Below are positions 10,081 to 51,720 of a stretch of 64,000 nucleotides of DNA, in pieces. The notes below the pieces were generated by a model that was not told where the DNA came from, ran no database searches, and worked only from the letters and a program-made list of their open reading frames with translations. How positions within the stretch are numbered: the first letter of the stretch is position 1; each line of letters starts with the position of its first letter. Source of the stretch: Raineyella fluvialis (GTDB taxonomy: Bacteria > Actinomycetota > Actinomycetes > Propionibacteriales > Propionibacteriaceae); the NCBI RefSeq assembly GCF_009646095.1, contig NZ_CP045725.1, positions 186,001 to 250,000 of the forward strand. The letters run 5' to 3'. The position numbers and the translations under genes are program-made.

Positions 10081-10182
10081 TCGATAAGCAGATTTTATCT
10101 AGTTGCCTATATATGCTTATACTCTACCGTAACAGTAGGTTTTCGGGAGGCGTTCCTCCCCGAACCTGTCCGAGAGGCAACG
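10081..10182. promoter_or_regulatory. AT-rich divergent promoter region
   Basis: This is the only clearly AT-rich stretch in the window. For the minus strand, TAAAAT sits about 20 nt before the VOC ATG. For the plus strand, TATACT (10118-10123) is a good -10. Two short dyads are visible: GATAA/TTATC (10082-10098) and CTAC/GTAG around 10124-10138. A 9-bp hairpin (10142-10164, ttcgggagg/cctccccgaa) lies in the plus-strand leader just before the AGAGG ribosome binding site at about 10174. A regulator site is likely here, but which regulator binds cannot be told. Confidence 0.5.
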
Positions 10183-10692
10183 ATGAGAAACTCCCGAGCT
10201 GCGGCCGGCGCCGTGGTCGCCGACATGTTGGACCGGGTGGCCCTGCCCGCCGGGACGGCCGCCCGCCATCCACGCGAGCTGTCGGGGGGCCAGCGCCAGC
10301 GGGTGGCCATCGCCCGCGCCCTGGTGCTGGAACCGAGCGTCGTGGTGCTCGACGAACCGGTCTCCGCGCTCGACGTCACGGTGCAGGCCCAGATCCTGCG
10401 GCTACTGGAGCGGCTGCAGCGCGACCTCGGCCTGACCTACCTGTTCATCTCGCATGATCTTGCCGTCGTCCGCCGGATCGCCGACACCGTCTCGGTGATG
10501 CGCGCGGGGCGCATCGTCGAGACCGGGCCACTCGGCCAGGTCTTCGACGACCCCCGTTCCGACTACACCCGAGCACTGCTCGACGCGATCCCCGCCCGGG
10601 GGATCCTGCCCGTCCGCCCCACCGTACTGCCCAGCTCGGTCACCCGACCGCCCCTGGCCACCGCCCCTCGAACCCAGGAGTCCCCAGCATGA
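10183..10692 (+). pseudogene. C-terminal half of an oligopeptide-type ABC ATPase
   Basis: 169 residues from ATG 10183. The sequence begins just before ELSGGQRQRVAIARAL (ABC signature), continues through VVVLDEPVSALDVTVQAQ (Walker B and D-loop) and FISHDLAVVRR (H-loop), and ends in the OppF/DppF-type C-terminus (DYTRALLDAIP). The Walker A P-loop, the Q-loop and roughly 150 N-terminal residues are absent from all frames upstream, so it cannot bind ATP alone. In the related operons I recall (LLM KPN_01858, SBP KPN_01854, CMD Avi_7170 and Avi_7169 families) a complete peptide-type ABC transporter precedes these enzymes. The stop overlaps the next start (ATGA), so the 3' end keeps its operon coupling. 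Confidence 0.85.
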
Positions 10693-11729
10693 CCGCACCA
10701 GCCCTCGGCTTCTTCACGCGTCTCCTCGAGGACGCCCCGGCCGCCGACCGGTACCGCTACGCAGTGGCCCAGATCCAGCAGGCCGAACGGTACGGGTACC
10801 GGTCAGCCTGGGTCGCCCAGCACCACTTCCACGAATCCGAGGGAGGGCTCCCCTCCCCACTGGTCTTCCTGGCGCACGCCGCGGCCCGGACCAGCCGGAT
10901 CCGTCTCGGCACTGGCGTGATCACCCTGCCCATGGAAGCGCCCGTACGGTTGGCCGAGGATCTCGCCGTGCTGGACCGGCTCGCTGACGGCCGGGTCGAG
11001 GTGGGCCTGGCCTCCGGCGGCACGCCGGGTTCCTTCCCGGCGTTCGGGCACCGGTTCGACAATCGCCACACCGTCTACTTCCGCCACCTGCAGGACCTGC
11101 TGGACGCCTGGGAGGGGCGCGGCGTCGCCGGCACGGAGAACCGTCTCTACCCCTCCGGCGGCACCCTGCCCGAACGCCTGTGGCACGCGACGTTCTCAGC
11201 CGACGGCGCACGCCGAGCCGGTCGGCGAGGTCTGGGTCTGATGCTGTCCCGTACGCAGCCCCGTCCGGAGGGCGACCCGCACGCATCCCTGCCCGAGCTG
11301 CAGCATCCGATCATCGACGCCTACCTGGAATCCCTGCCGCCGGAGGTCTCCCCCCGGATCATGGCCTCGCGGACGCTGTTCGTCAGCGAGGACCGTGCCG
11401 AGGCCCAGGAGTACGGCGAACAGGGACTGCGCCGCGGAGTGGAACGGCTGCGCTACCTGGATCCACGGCTCGCCTCCGCGCGGCTGGAGGACCTCACCGC
11501 CGTAACCGACACCCATCTGGGCACGCCCGAGGACGTGATCGCCTCACTGGCGACCGACACGGTCCTGCAGCGCGCCACCGACGTGGTCTTCCAGGTGCAC
11601 TCGGTCGACCCGCCCCACGAGGCCACACTGCAGTCCATCGCGCTGGTCGCCGAGCGCGTGGCCCCGCACTTCGGCTGGAAGGTGGCCACTCCGGCCTCCG
11701 CCCCCGAGACCGATCGGCAGGCAGCATGA
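10689..11729 (+). CDS. FMN-dependent luciferase-like monooxygenase (KPN_01858-type)
   Basis: 346 residues. Bacterial-luciferase-fold flavoprotein, read from RIRLGTGVITLPMEAPVRLAEDLAVLDRLADGRVE-like segments (residues 60-100) that are the LLM core, and GWVAQHH-type text near residue 40. LLM enzymes use reduced FMN and oxygen to oxidise small molecules such as sulfonates. It matches, as far as I recall, the family found with CMD-domain proteins and a peptide-type ABC transporter (TIGR04027). The physiological substrate is unknown. The ATG overlaps the preceding stop, and its own stop overlaps the next ATG, so all four genes from 10183 to 13023 form one translationally coupled operon. Confidence 0.85.
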   Translation: MTAPALGFFTRLLEDAPAADRYRYAVAQIQQAERYGYRSAWVAQHHFHESEGGLPSPLVFLAHAAARTSRIRLGTGVITLPMEAPVRLAEDLAVLDRLADGRVEVGLASGGTPGSFPAFGHRFDNRHTVYFRHLQDLLDAWEGRGVAGTENRLYPSGGTLPERLWHATFSADGARRAGRRGLGLMLSRTQPRPEGDPHASLPELQHPIIDAYLESLPPEVSPRIMASRTLFVSEDRAEAQEYGEQGLRRGVERLRYLDPRLASARLEDLTAVTDTHLGTPEDVIASLATDTVLQRATDVVFQVHSVDPPHEATLQSIALVAERVAPHFGWKVATPASAPETDRQAA

Positions 11730-12364
11730 GCGCGCCGGTGACGCCACGACACGTCGACGTCGACGTCGACGTCGACGTCGACGTCGTCGACCGACTGGCG
11801 GGGATCCGGCCGGGCAGCCGACTCGACGACGTGCGGCGACGCCGCCCCATCGCCCGGGAACAGACCCAGCACGCCTACGAACTGCTCTTCGGACCGGGCG
11901 CGGGTGGGCTGTTCTCCCGCGCTGAACGCCTTGCCGTCGCCACCTTCGTCACCGCCCTGCATGGGGAGACGAGGATCGCCGACCACTACGCCGCCCTGCT
12001 GGCCGAGGTCGAACCCGAGTGGGTCGACCCGCTGCGGGCTGAGGCCGACCGGGCCGCCGGGAGGGGCCCCTGGGGCACCTATCGCGAGCCCGGCCTCGCC
12101 GACGAGAGTGTGCCGGGGCCCGCCTACGTCGCCGCGCCAGGCATCCACGACCGACTCGGCGGACGGCTCGCGGGCGCCCTGACCCATGCCCACCTGCTCG
12201 TACTGCATCCCCGCGATGCCTCCCCGGAGGCGTTGGCGTCGCTGGCCGCAGCCGGCTGGTCCCGATCCGGAATCGTCACCCTGTCCCAGGCCGTCGCCTT
12301 CCTCACCTACCAGATCCGCCTCGTCCACGGCCTACGACAGCTGGCCATCGAAGGAGACTCATGA
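11726..12364 (+). CDS. CMD domain protein (Avi_7170-type)
   Basis: 212 residues from ATG 11726, which overlaps the LLM stop by 4 nt. The N-terminus carries a run of Val-Asp pairs encoded by a hexanucleotide repeat. The body resembles the carboxymuconolactone-decarboxylase-like helical fold (FSRAERLAVATFVTALHGE near residue 65). The usual CxxC-H peroxidase triad is not obvious here, unlike in its downstream neighbour, so this may be a non-catalytic partner. It is the companion of the LLM and alkylhydroperoxidase genes in a known conserved set. The function is not established. Confidence 0.78.
   Translation: MSAPVTPRHVDVDVDVDVDVVDRLAGIRPGSRLDDVRRRRPIAREQTQHAYELLFGPGAGGLFSRAERLAVATFVTALHGETRIADHYAALLAEVEPEWVDPLRAEADRAAGRGPWGTYREPGLADESVPGPAYVAAPGIHDRLGGRLAGALTHAHLLVLHPRDASPEALASLAAAGWSRSGIVTLSQAVAFLTYQIRLVHGLRQLAIEGDS
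11751..11789 (+). repeat. GTCGAC hexanucleotide repeat inside the CMD gene
   Basis: About six consecutive GTCGAC units encode a Val-Asp run at residues 11-20 of the CMD protein. Each unit is itself a palindrome. Copy-number changes by slippage would add or remove two residues without breaking the frame. Confidence 0.9.
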
Positions 12365-14658: not shown

Positions 14659-16314
14659 ATGTCCGACCCCACCACTCCCACTCCCCGCATCCCCACAGGT
14701 GCCGCCGGTGCCACGGCCGCTCCGCCCGGTGACTTCACCGGCACCCCCCACCGGTGGTGGGGGATGGCCGCCATCGCGCTGGGCACCTCGTTGGTGATCA
14801 TGGACGCCACGATCGCCAACGTCGCGCTGCCGGTCGTCATCGACGACCTCCACATGAGCGCCACCCAGGCGCAGTGGGTCAGCGCCGTCTATGCCCTGGT
14901 CTTCGCGTCACTGATGCTCACCTCGGGCCGGTTCGGGGATCTCTTCGGCCGCCGGATGATGTTCGTGGCCGGCCTGGTCGTCTTCATGGGGTCCTCCCTC
15001 GTCGCCGGTTCGGCGGGCAGCCCGGAGGTGCTGCTCGCGGCCAGGTTGGTGCAGGGTGTCGGGGCCGCGATGGTGCTTCCCGCCACCACGTCGACGATCA
15101 ACGCGATGTTCACCGGCAAGGACCGCAGCATCGCCTTCGCGATCTACGGCTCGGCGATCGGTGGCATGGCGGCGGTGGGCCCGCTCGTCGGTGGCTGGCT
15201 CGCCACCGACGCGAGCTGGCGCTGGGCCTTCTGGCTCAACATTCCGTTCGGGATCGCCGCGGTGGTTCTGGCCACCCGCTACCTGCCGGAGACGCGGGAT
15301 CGTACGTTGCGCCGAGGCATCGACTGGTCCGGGACCGTGCTCGCGACGCTGGGTCTCGGCGGCATCGTCTTCGCCCTGGTCGAATCCTCCTCGTTCGGTT
15401 GGCTGCACCAGGCGGACGGCTCGCTGTCCCCGGTGCCGTTCGCCCTTGCCGGTGGTGTTGTCCTGATGGGCCTGTGGGTCTGGGCCGAACGGATCCGGCA
15501 CCGTCGCGGGGCCATCGTCCAGGCCCACCTCGGGCTGTGGCGCATCGCGAACTTCCGGCACGGGGCCATCGCCTCGATGGTGATCACGCTCGGGGAGTTC
15601 GGCATGCTGTTCACCCTCCCCCTGGTCCTCCAGGGCGCGCTGGGCTACGACGCGCTGGGCACCGGGTGGCTGATGATGGTGCTGGCCGTCGGGACGTTCG
15701 TGATGTCGGGCGCGGTCCCCCAGCTCACCCGTCGGATCGGCGCGCGACGAGTGGTGCAGTTCGGCGTCTTCGTCGAGGCGATCGCGGTGGCCGGGCTGGC
15801 CCTGGCGCTTCCCGGCACCGCCTGGTCGATCGGGGCCTGCCTCTTCCTCTACGGCCTCGGCGTCGGGATGGCGACGGCGCAGGTGACCAGCGTCTCCCTC
15901 GCCGAAGTGCCGGTCGGCCTGTCCGGGGAGGCGTCCGGCATGCTCACCACCGTTCGCCAGATCGGTTCGGCACTCGGGGTCGCGGTGCTCGGTGGTCTGC
16001 TGATCAGTTCACTCACCCAGGGCACCCAGTCGCGCCTGGATGAGGTCCCACTGCCGGCGGCCGCCCGGACGGCGGTGGTCAGCGCGGTGCACGACTCGAT
16101 CGGTGCGGCGATCCCTGCGCTGCAGCGTGACGCCCGGACCACTGCGGCGGCCCAGCTCGCGGCGGAGGCCTTGGTCGACGCGGCCAGGATCTCCACCGGC
16201 GTCGCCGGCGGCATCCTCGGGATCGGTTTCCTGGCCACTCTCGCCCTGACCGAGGTGTCCGCCGAGGAGACGATGCGCCGGCGCGGACGTACGGAGAGCG
16301 CCGTCGAGGCCTGA
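14659..16314 (+). CDS. MFS drug transporter, DHA2 (14-TM) type
   Basis: 551 residues. Proton-driven efflux of drugs or other cations across the inner membrane is likely. The first membrane helix region has SLVIMDATIANVALPVV, the DHA2 motif D variant. GRFGDLFGRRMM near residue 95 is motif A. About 14 membrane spans can be counted, with an Ala-rich extracellular loop near 470. It is divergent from tetR and is probably repressed by it. The gene converges on the transglutaminase gene across a large paired repeat. Confidence 0.9.
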   Translation: MSDPTTPTPRIPTGAAGATAAPPGDFTGTPHRWWGMAAIALGTSLVIMDATIANVALPVVIDDLHMSATQAQWVSAVYALVFASLMLTSGRFGDLFGRRMMFVAGLVVFMGSSLVAGSAGSPEVLLAARLVQGVGAAMVLPATTSTINAMFTGKDRSIAFAIYGSAIGGMAAVGPLVGGWLATDASWRWAFWLNIPFGIAAVVLATRYLPETRDRTLRRGIDWSGTVLATLGLGGIVFALVESSSFGWLHQADGSLSPVPFALAGGVVLMGLWVWAERIRHRRGAIVQAHLGLWRIANFRHGAIASMVITLGEFGMLFTLPLVLQGALGYDALGTGWLMMVLAVGTFVMSGAVPQLTRRIGARRVVQFGVFVEAIAVAGLALALPGTAWSIGACLFLYGLGVGMATAQVTSVSLAEVPVGLSGEASGMLTTVRQIGSALGVAVLGGLLISSLTQGTQSRLDEVPLPAAARTAVVSAVHDSIGAAIPALQRDARTTAAAQLAAEALVDAARISTGVAGGILGIGFLATLALTEVSAEETMRRRGRTESAVEA

Positions 16315-16391
16315 GCCACGGAGTAACTCCCGGGTGCGAAGGGCCAGGGGTGGGATGGCCTGCCACGCCCGCAGAGCTGAGGTTCTCGCGT

Positions 16392-16495
16392 GAGGGCCCT
16401 GAACAACTGAGGGGAATTGCGTAACTGAGGAGGAAAAGCGGCCAGAAGGTCCTCAGTTGTGCCTATCCCCTCAGTTGCGCGAATGGCCCTCGCCC
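16392..16495. repeat. Large imperfect inverted repeat with four AACTGAGG units
   Basis: The left arm (16392-16431) carries GAGGGCC, then CAACTGAGGGGA, then AACTGAGGA. The right arm (16450-16495) has the same three blocks inverted in the same order and at the same 5-nt and 7-nt spacings, while the bases between the blocks differ. It fills the gap between two convergent genes. It could be a two-way terminator or a small mobile repeat. Confidence 0.8.
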
Positions 16496-16520
16496 TGGTC
16501 ACGGTGAGTCCCTCAAACGC

Positions 16521-17420
16521 TCAGGGAGCCGGGAAGGTCGAGGCCTCGATCGGCGCCATGTCCACGCTGACCTTCATCGCCGACCGCCCAGCCTCGCCGT
16601 AGATCACGCCCCGCACCGGGGCGACATCGGAGTAGTCCCGGCCCCAGGCGACGGTGGCGTGCGACTCGTCGACCGGCCGGTCGTTGGTCGGGTCGAGGTC
16701 GTACCAGCCGGCCCCCGGCACCCAGACCCCCGCCCAGGCATGTGTCGCGTCGGCCCCGATGTTGCGGGGCCGCCCGGGTGGGGGGATCGTGGCCAGGTAG
16801 CCGGAGACGTACCGCCCGGCCAGTCCCACCGAGCGCAGGCAGGCCACCATCAGCTGGGCGAAGTCCTGACAGACCCCCGCCCGGATCCGCAGCACCTCGT
16901 CGACCCGGGTCGTCACGGACGTGGCGCGAGGGTCGTACGCGAAGTCGGCGTGGATCCGGTGGTTCAGCTCCTCGACGGCCTCCCCCAGCGGCCGGCCGGC
17001 CGGGAACGACGGGGCCGCGTAGGCGGCGACCTCGGCACGGATGTCCACCCGCGGCGACGGCAGCGTCAGGTCGACGGCACGCCACCAGTCGGACACGTCG
17101 CGACGGCTGTCCGGCCGGCACCGTTCCCACGGCTCGGCGAGGGCCTGCGGCTCGACGGTCTGCGCGCCCACGGTCAGGTCCGTCGTGCCGACGATGACCA
17201 GGTCCGTGTGCGGCGCGGTGACGTGGTACCAGGTGCGGGTGTTGCCGTACACATCGACGTACGTCGCCCGATCCGAGGGGACCGGCGTCACGTCGATGCG
17301 GTGGCCGAGGAGGTGCTGACGGCTGTCCTCCTGCGGCGCCAGATGATAGAGCCCGTAGCTCGAGGTGATCCGTCCCTCGTAGTGGTAGGCGGTTTCGTGG
17401 CGGATGCGGTAGGTCCTCAC
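16521..17420 (-). CDS. Transglutaminase-like cysteine protease family protein
   Basis: 299 residues, cytosolic. The N-terminal beta domain (MRTYRIRHETAYHYEG) is the bacterial transglutaminase-like N-terminal module. The papain-fold core follows with the catalytic triad in order: Cys in IRAGVCQDFAQLM (near residue 173), His in ATHAWAGVW (near 225) and Asp in WYDLDPTNDR (near 240). Genes of this type sit beside the circularly permuted ATP-grasp and alpha-E genes in many bacteria, and the proteins are thought to act together in making and cutting an amide-linked product. The ATG overlaps the stop of the upstream gene (ATGA). Confidence 0.9.
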   Translation of the reverse strand: MRTYRIRHETAYHYEGRITSSYGLYHLAPQEDSRQHLLGHRIDVTPVPSDRATYVDVYGNTRTWYHVTAPHTDLVIVGTTDLTVGAQTVEPQALAEPWERCRPDSRRDVSDWWRAVDLTLPSPRVDIRAEVAAYAAPSFPAGRPLGEAVEELNHRIHADFAYDPRATSVTTRVDEVLRIRAGVCQDFAQLMVACLRSVGLAGRYVSGYLATIPPPGRPRNIGADATHAWAGVWVPGAGWYDLDPTNDRPVDESHATVAWGRDYSDVAPVRGVIYGEAGRSAMKVSVDMAPIEASTFPAP

Positions 17421-21527: not shown

Positions 21528-21581
21528 GGTGGGCAATGCTACAAGGTGACTGTGCGGGGCCCTGCCGGTGCGCCACCATGC

Positions 21582-21615
21582 GTCGGGGCCCCGGTCGATC
21601 GACCGGGGACCCGAC
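21582..21615 (-). terminator. Hairpin after the DUF3618 operon
   Basis: A nearly perfect 34-nt dyad: gtcggg and cccgac outside, the self-complementary ccggtcgatcgaccgg inside. It lies 22 nt past the DUF3618 stop and about 40 nt before the ahcY -10 on the same strand. Confidence 0.7.
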
Positions 21616-21637
21616 GCCAGCAGGGAACAGGCGAGGC

Positions 21638-47296: not shown

Positions 47297-47336
47297 TCCT
47301 GACGGGCCCCTGACGGGGCTCGCTGGACCGACGTCC

Positions 47337-47387
47337 GACCGGGCCGTCGTCCCGTCCTCCCAGCGAGGACGAGGCGGCGGCCCGGTC
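47337..47387. terminator. Nested hairpin between accA3 and lpdA
   Basis: Outer arms GACCGGGCCG (47337-47346) and CGGCCCGGTC (47378-47387), inner arms gtcctc/gaggac (47354-47370). It lies between convergent stops. The rest of the 183-bp gap holds no gene. Confidence 0.7.
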
Positions 47388-47480
47388 GCGTCCGCCGTAC
47401 ATGGCCCGGGACGAGGAAGCGCCCGGGCGAGGTCCTGATGACCCCACCCGGGCGCGTCTCAGCAGCCCGGCGTACGCGAC

Positions 47481-51679: not shown

Positions 51680-51720
51680 CACCCCGGGGTCGGGCCGCTG
51701 AGCGGCCCGACCCCGGGGTG
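51680..51720. terminator. Strong bidirectional terminator between pmmB and actP
   Basis: A 20-bp perfect inverted repeat (51680-51699 and 51701-51720) of caccccggggtcgggccgct and its complement around a single G. It is among the strongest hairpins in the window and lies between convergent stops. Confidence 0.85.

Follow-up and report, generated by a model that had tools for sequence, protein, structure and literature searches.

The closest described arrangement is that of REP/REPIN sequences with their RAYT genes. According to the accessible part of one account (PMC3733652) these are short, sharp-bordered palindromes, mostly intergenic, multicopy and species-restricted, and in REPtrons and TIRtrons a gene is bracketed by their copies. 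The palindromes described here, among them the element with copies designated C1, C2 and C3, resemble this general plan, although bracketing on both sides is seen only around some DUF559 genes of related genomes and the gene at C2 has a palindrome on one side only; moreover, no Y1/HUH transposase (PF01797, RAYT/IS200) was detected in any of 11 genomes, which included the genome of the window (G000) and G002 but not G081, the ends of C1 when read directly carry neither the GTAG nor the CGTC tetranucleotide which the same source gives as a REP feature, and the gene bracketed by palindromes here encodes a DUF559 PD-(D/E)XK protein. MITEs are comparable as small gene-less repeats with inverted arms, but here no parent transposase was identified and no target-site duplication is readable.

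Two groups of proteins are also related. The AbiE-type antitoxins (AbiEi, Rv2827c) resemble the N-terminal part of several DUF559 proteins and likewise have inverted repeats near the gene, whereas the proteins considered here possess a C-terminal Vsr-like nuclease domain and the palindromes are found also on the 3' side and dispersed in the genome. The Vsr-like and homing-endonuclease-like nucleases (Vsr, mobile intron protein 3r3p, Caulobacter VsrA) are related by profile to this C-terminal domain, but here the domain is fused to the AbiEi-like part and associated with palindromes. Caulobacter VsrA is characterized, in the part of the report available, as a DUF559-containing PD-(D/E)XK, Vsr-like endonuclease which cells devoid of a methyltransferase need for an SOS response (PMC12907096). 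Caulobacter crescentus, which has this DUF559 protein, is also listed in the accessible part of PMC3733652 among the species with CGTC REPs without dedicated transposase.

Within the titles and starts of abstracts of the open-access papers listed, neither a report on the pairing of a palindrome with a DUF559/AbiEi nuclease nor a role for AbiEi-fused DUF559 proteins was found. The main text of the RepRanger REP survey (PMC12306157), so far as it is accessible, contains neither RAYT nor any word starting with nuclease; its table includes actinobacteria, e.g., Acidipropionibacterium, and thus such repeats may have been counted there already without a partner.

The window, that is the whole stretch of 64,000 nucleotides that was analysed, contains C1 as a hairpin between the stop codons of a convergent pair consisting of an MFS transporter gene and a transglutaminase-like gene, with the following features.

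14659..16314, plus strand: MFS transporter gene flanking C1, context only (PF07690, E 8e-52)
16390..16398, plus strand: outer stem of C1, left half, differing in sequence from that at C2 (fold of 16380-16500)
16404..16477, no strand assigned: C1, shared core of 74 nt, imperfect hairpin (inverted repeat, alignment with C2 and covariance-model match)
16404..16433, plus strand: left arm of C1 with two AACTGAGG units at 16405 and 16423 (unit matches and C1/C2 alignment)
16434..16447, no strand assigned: middle of C1, 14 nt, differing between C1 and C2 (C1/C2 alignment)
16448..16477, minus strand: right arm of C1 with two AACTGAGG units on the minus strand at 16451 and 16469 (unit matches and C1/C2 alignment)
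16485..16493, minus strand: outer stem of C1, right half (fold of 16380-16500)
16521..17420, minus strand: transglutaminase-like gene flanking C1, context only (PF01841, E 6.2e-20)

The AACTGAGG unit has only these four matches in the whole 64 kb (16405 and 16423 on the plus strand, 16451 and 16469 on the minus strand), while dinucleotide shuffles gave a mean of 0.84; since 1 of 100 shuffles reached four, the units by themselves are just moderately unlikely and the stronger evidence is their paired arrangement. The inverted arms 16404-16431 and 16450-16477 are 82% complementary, and the RNA fold of 16380-16500 on the plus strand has an energy of -61 kcal/mol versus -40.7 (sd 3.8) in shuffles, none of 200 of which equalled it (z -5.4), the z value for the minus strand being -4.9. 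The four-unit paired repeat between convergent genes, as proposed in the original prediction, is thereby confirmed by unit positions, arms and fold, and the three blocks expected in both arms (CAACTGAGGGGA, GC and AACTGAGGA) are indeed common to them, with the differences between the arms located outside the blocks. The proposed arm length of about 40 bp has to be corrected to the measured value of about 30 nt, and is reached only if the outer stem 16390-16398/16485-16493 is included, which is not a part of the shared element because its sequence at C2 is unlike that at C1.

The genome of the window is a 3.65-Mb single contig and contains two further copies. C2 was located at 663068-663150 by BLASTN and at 663064-663138 by the covariance model R1, which was made from C1 and C2 on both strands, and C3 was detected at 2359746-2359818 (E 1.7e-9) by this model alone, having been missed by BLASTN with C1. 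In alignment C1 and C2 have in common two 30-nt arms flanking a middle of about 14 nt, and C3, as judged by eye, has an additional repeat inside the left arm. As regards the expectation of copies at convergent gene ends, C1 is at such a place, C2 is situated between two minus-strand, i.e., tandem, genes, and C3 lies between genes of opposite strands, 3' of a tRNA-Leu gene (plus) and 3' of an alcohol dehydrogenase gene (minus).

BLASTN with C1 gave no match in 36 other genomes (0/36). The R1 search in 198 genomes of the family, for which stricter filters were used so that weak copies may be missed, resulted in the three copies of G000, one match in G195 (E 1.9e-5) and a marginal match in G092 (E 0.055), which is left out of the argument, with none in the remaining 195. 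The idea of a repeat family was to be abandoned if the genome held a single copy and the relatives none; three copies rule out the first half, and for the relatives there are none in the three congeners and, besides the genome itself, only G195, and marginally G092, among 198. Matches to the pattern of two AACTGAGG units at the C1 spacing, which appeared in one Desulfosporosinus contig and one viral contig, were taken as chance, because 250 bases around each held no opposing arm.

The convergent pair of genes is present in the congeneric genomes G001, G002 and G003 (best transglutaminase matches 83–89% identical), and the C1 hairpin is missing between the two genes in all three. Judging from these sequences, the gain of C1 in G000 would be the simpler reading; loss in the congeners is not excluded, because their other intergenic DNA is too diverged for a target-site duplication or a clean junction to be read.

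Copy C2 precedes a DUF559 gene (about 662094-662957, minus strand), at a distance of 106 bp from the likely ATG. The palindrome is found on the 5' side of this gene only, and nothing resembling it was seen on the 3' side. Because G000 holds just 2 DUF559 matches in 3.65 Mb, a position within about 110 bp of one of them is unlikely by chance. The R1 match of G195 also has such a neighbour, about 34 bp separating it from the end of a gene with DUF559 and MTES_1575 matches. DUF559 genes in general are common, with at least one in 130 of 148 genomes of the family.

According to domain matches the C2-linked protein is composed of a weakly AbiEi-like DNA-binding part and a C-terminal Vsr/homing-endonuclease-like PD-(D/E)XK domain: the DUF559 match (E 6.5e-6) is above and the AbiEi_4 match under the curated cut-off, NCBIfam gave only weak matches far under cut-off, and PADLOC gave no match for this protein and AbiEi matches in 4 of 5 tested DUF559 proteins. 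A profile of 15 of these DUF559 proteins compared with PDB matched the endonuclease-like 3hrl (1e-12) and the mobile intron protein 3r3p (2e-7). Its N-terminal part matched two abortive-infection proteins, 9hlo (0.0049) and 6y8q (0.0059), and there was a weak match to Vsr (1cw0, 0.055). Acidic residues are conserved across the aligned DUF559 proteins and fit a PD-(D/E)XK site. At one position of the probable active-site motif all of the 22 other proteins in the alignment carry E but the C2-linked protein carries Q, and on account of this replacement it may be inactive, which is a prediction from sequence. The protein of another locus, L116, is its relative (34% over 282 aa).

The surroundings of other DUF559 genes were compared with those of control ORFs, which were crude predictions of 400–1600 bp from the same regions. 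In 8 genomes, 13 DUF559 loci were looked at first, and several of them had hairpins close by. Hairpin counts at the 1-kb scale around 60 DUF559 genes resulted in weak enrichment, and in the 250-bp flanks hairpins were slightly commoner at DUF559 genes, at score 13 (11/60 versus 55/468 controls) as well as at score 15 (9/60 versus 39/468).

In the flank-pair measure the 250 bp before a gene were aligned with the 250 bp after it, with a score threshold of 30. In the first set, where 60 DUF559 genes were examined in 20-kb regions, such pairs were found at 10 of 60 genes versus 2 of 468 control ORFs (Fisher p 9.7e-9), and in a fresh set with the threshold unchanged at 8 of 40 versus 3 of 327 (p 1.3e-6), which gives 18 of 100 versus 5 of 795 for both sets and leaves 82 of 100 DUF559 genes without a pair at this threshold. 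It is by the similarity of the flanks that DUF559 genes are separated from controls. The measure was picked after inspection of the first set and only then held at threshold 30 for the fresh one. The samples were not random: the 13 loci inspected earlier supplied 11 genes of the first set, which account for 4 of its 10 matches (L106, L108, L110, L111), and the remaining DUF559 genes were drawn from listed matches with preference for long contigs. Among the controls, all three matches of the second set are in one tandem-repeat region (L163), and those of the first set are at L110 and L100.

The flank pairs are mostly long imperfect palindromes with a sequence differing from gene to gene. The automatic palindrome test (versus 100 shuffles) was passed by 12 of the 18; from the six failing pairs L065, L071 and L164 fold as hairpins when excised, L108 does so less strongly, and L156 and L163 are not palindromes by fold. 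At L156 (G053) the DUF559 gene is flanked on the 5' side (-198 to -112) and on the 3' side by similar non-palindromic repeats with a short tandem motif. The L116 gene has a palindrome on both sides, yet it is not included in the flank-pair count, as the reading frame extends into the 3' copy.

Genome-wide counts cover only two families besides that of the window. In G002 the L110 palindrome matches 23 times, at 12 places, whereas G000, G001 and G003 gave no match, and 4 of these 12 copies lie within about 2.5 kb of the L110 gene. The L170 palindrome, whose copies bracketing the gene are identical (80/80 bases), has 53 matches in G081, which amount to 24 full copies plus a half copy; 15 other genomes of that genus gave none. 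The 24 copies have sharp borders and a core of 77 nt (20 copies) or 76 nt (4 copies), with arms 94% alike and middles 54% alike in 196 equal-length pairs; the figure for the arms is inflated, as the copies were located and excised by their arms. By a crude ORF rule 19 of 24 copies in G081 (3.9 expected) and 7 of 12 in G002 (1.7 expected) are intergenic, the same rule having put C1 in a spurious ORF, though C1 is between two annotated-type genes. The copies of both families occur in convergent, divergent and tandem settings.

Some other palindromes were noticed in G002. One at L032 (2952-2991, score 14), near L110-family copies, is different and has a similar TTCTTG/CAAGAA motif at its beginning and end, being perhaps a diverged or second family. 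At L109/L029 two direct copies of another palindrome (L029, 422-467 and 624-675) are located about 760–970 bp past the 3' end of a third DUF559 gene.

L108, which is the other DUF559 gene of G000, can be followed through the congeners. It shares 83% identity with the G003 counterpart (L105), and both genes have related palindromes on both sides, the 3' one of G003 being about 1.9 kb off with predicted ORFs between. In G001 a part of the gene and the 3' palindrome are seen, the stretch stopping short of the 5' side, and in G002 the flanks are present with neither the gene nor the palindromes found between them. The ORFs of G003 (L105, about 10158-12145), one of them lipoprotein-like, lie between the DUF559 gene and the 3' palindrome and are missing from this place in G000, as if they were cargo or a later insertion.

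Starting from what is observed, namely three copies, an empty site in congeners, domain matches, an excess of flank pairs and two multicopy families each in one genome, we propose that C1 belongs to a family of REP/REPIN-like palindromes whose enzyme is an AbiEi-DUF559 nuclease and not RAYT, a hypothesis to which we give an even chance. C1 would be a gene-less copy of the element and the DUF559 gene at C2 its partner. The AbiEi-like part may recognise its own palindrome, the arms forming a two-sided site and the middle a spacer; the fixed length of the variable middle in G081 fits such recognition of two arms at set spacing, which is itself an inference. The Vsr-like part would then nick or cut the palindrome, perhaps as a single-stranded hairpin at replication, and new copies could be gained through repair at mostly intergenic sites. 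A DUF559 gene with a copy of its own palindrome on either side would represent the gene-bearing form, analogous to the REPtron. Binding or cutting of the palindrome by the protein, its spread by this action and the belonging of C1 with the C2-linked gene are all inferred, without direct evidence of binding, cutting or movement.

In the general form, that widespread mobile palindromes are propagated by an AbiEi-type protein fused to a Vsr/homing-endonuclease-like domain, as a REPtron with a PD-(D/E)XK nuclease replacing the HUH transposase and a private palindrome family for each gene, the hypothesis is offered only tentatively, and we lean slightly against it. If true, it would be a second, independent solution to the REP/RAYT arrangement and would provide a testable role for DUF559, a common orphan domain, together with a candidate enzyme for palindromic repeats without dedicated transposase, e.g., the CGTC REPs in the available part of PMC3733652.

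Counting against the partnership are the 82 of 100 DUF559 genes without a flank pair and the bracketing of the C2-linked gene on one side only, and further the sub-threshold AbiEi_4 match and missing PADLOC match of its protein, the Q in the motif, the merely mild excess of hairpins, the unreadable junction and the restriction of genome-wide counts to two other families. The first two observations, with only 1 of 3 copies beside a DUF559 gene and a transposase search that covered the Y1 class alone, agree with the explanation that C1, C2 and C3 are a miniature element of the usual kind, dependent on an unseen transposase, and that the DUF559 proximity at C2 is coincidental. This explanation is considered unlikely, although it keeps some weight: it has to attribute to chance the placement within about 110 bp of one of two DUF559 matches in 3.65 Mb, the G195 match of R1 is likewise beside a DUF559 gene, and the flank-pair excess was reproduced in the fresh set.

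The AbiEi-like part could also indicate that the palindromes are operators through which the protein represses its own gene, the scattered copies being regulated sites or relics. In the accessible text of PMC7319586, AbiEi and Rv2827c repress their own promoters, where they bind to 23-bp inverted repeats, and AbiEi profiles match 4 of 5 tested DUF559 proteins; the position of C2 5' of the gene fits such a role (without binding data), and next to the orthologues in G000 and G003 (in G001 on the 3' side too) the palindromes remain recognisable despite diverged intergenic DNA nearby. However, the flank-pair measure detects copies 3' as well as 5' of the gene, the 12 and 24 dispersed copies occur in settings of every orientation, and C1 adjoins the two neighbour genes where they end and not where they start, which makes regulation improbable as the whole explanation. 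An operator role is a rival of the partnership with the nuclease, and the two could coexist.

Another view is that the palindromes were there before the DUF559 genes, which would insert at or next to them in the way of some insertion sequences at REPs. REPs are known insertion-sequence targets (PMC1525189, in the part available), and the vicinity of 4 of the 12 G002 copies to the L110 gene, within about 2.5 kb, would agree with this order. We regard it as improbable too: the palindrome sequence differs for each bracketed gene, and the bracketing copies of L170 are identical over 80/80 bases, whereas the other copies are at least 13% different from the query over comparable length.

Finally, the hairpin might end transcription from both sides or stabilise the RNA of both convergent genes, for which its location between them and the very stable fold on both strands could speak. 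This is very improbable, since the consensus scan of 16200-16700 gave 0 terminator-like sites with a T-run, Rfam gave no match at gathering score, the hairpin is absent from the corresponding gene pair in three congeners, and the C1/C2 stem is without compensatory changes (in four rows, i.e., two copies and their reverse complements). The suggestion in the original prediction that the structure is not a simple terminator and is rather a repeated extragenic or miniature mobile element is therefore upheld by the three genome copies, the empty place in 3/3 congeners and the lack of a terminator-like site. Its further suggestion of binding by a protein dimer or of a long stem in RNA stays conjectural, the latter finding no support in compensatory changes. 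The window also contains further strong hairpins with scores of 15–20 at 51680-51720, 1891-1939, 21580-21617 and 47336-47388, two of which have very short or no loops, and a repeated run of ACGTCG-type hexamers at 11751-11784, detected as a 17-bp palindrome.
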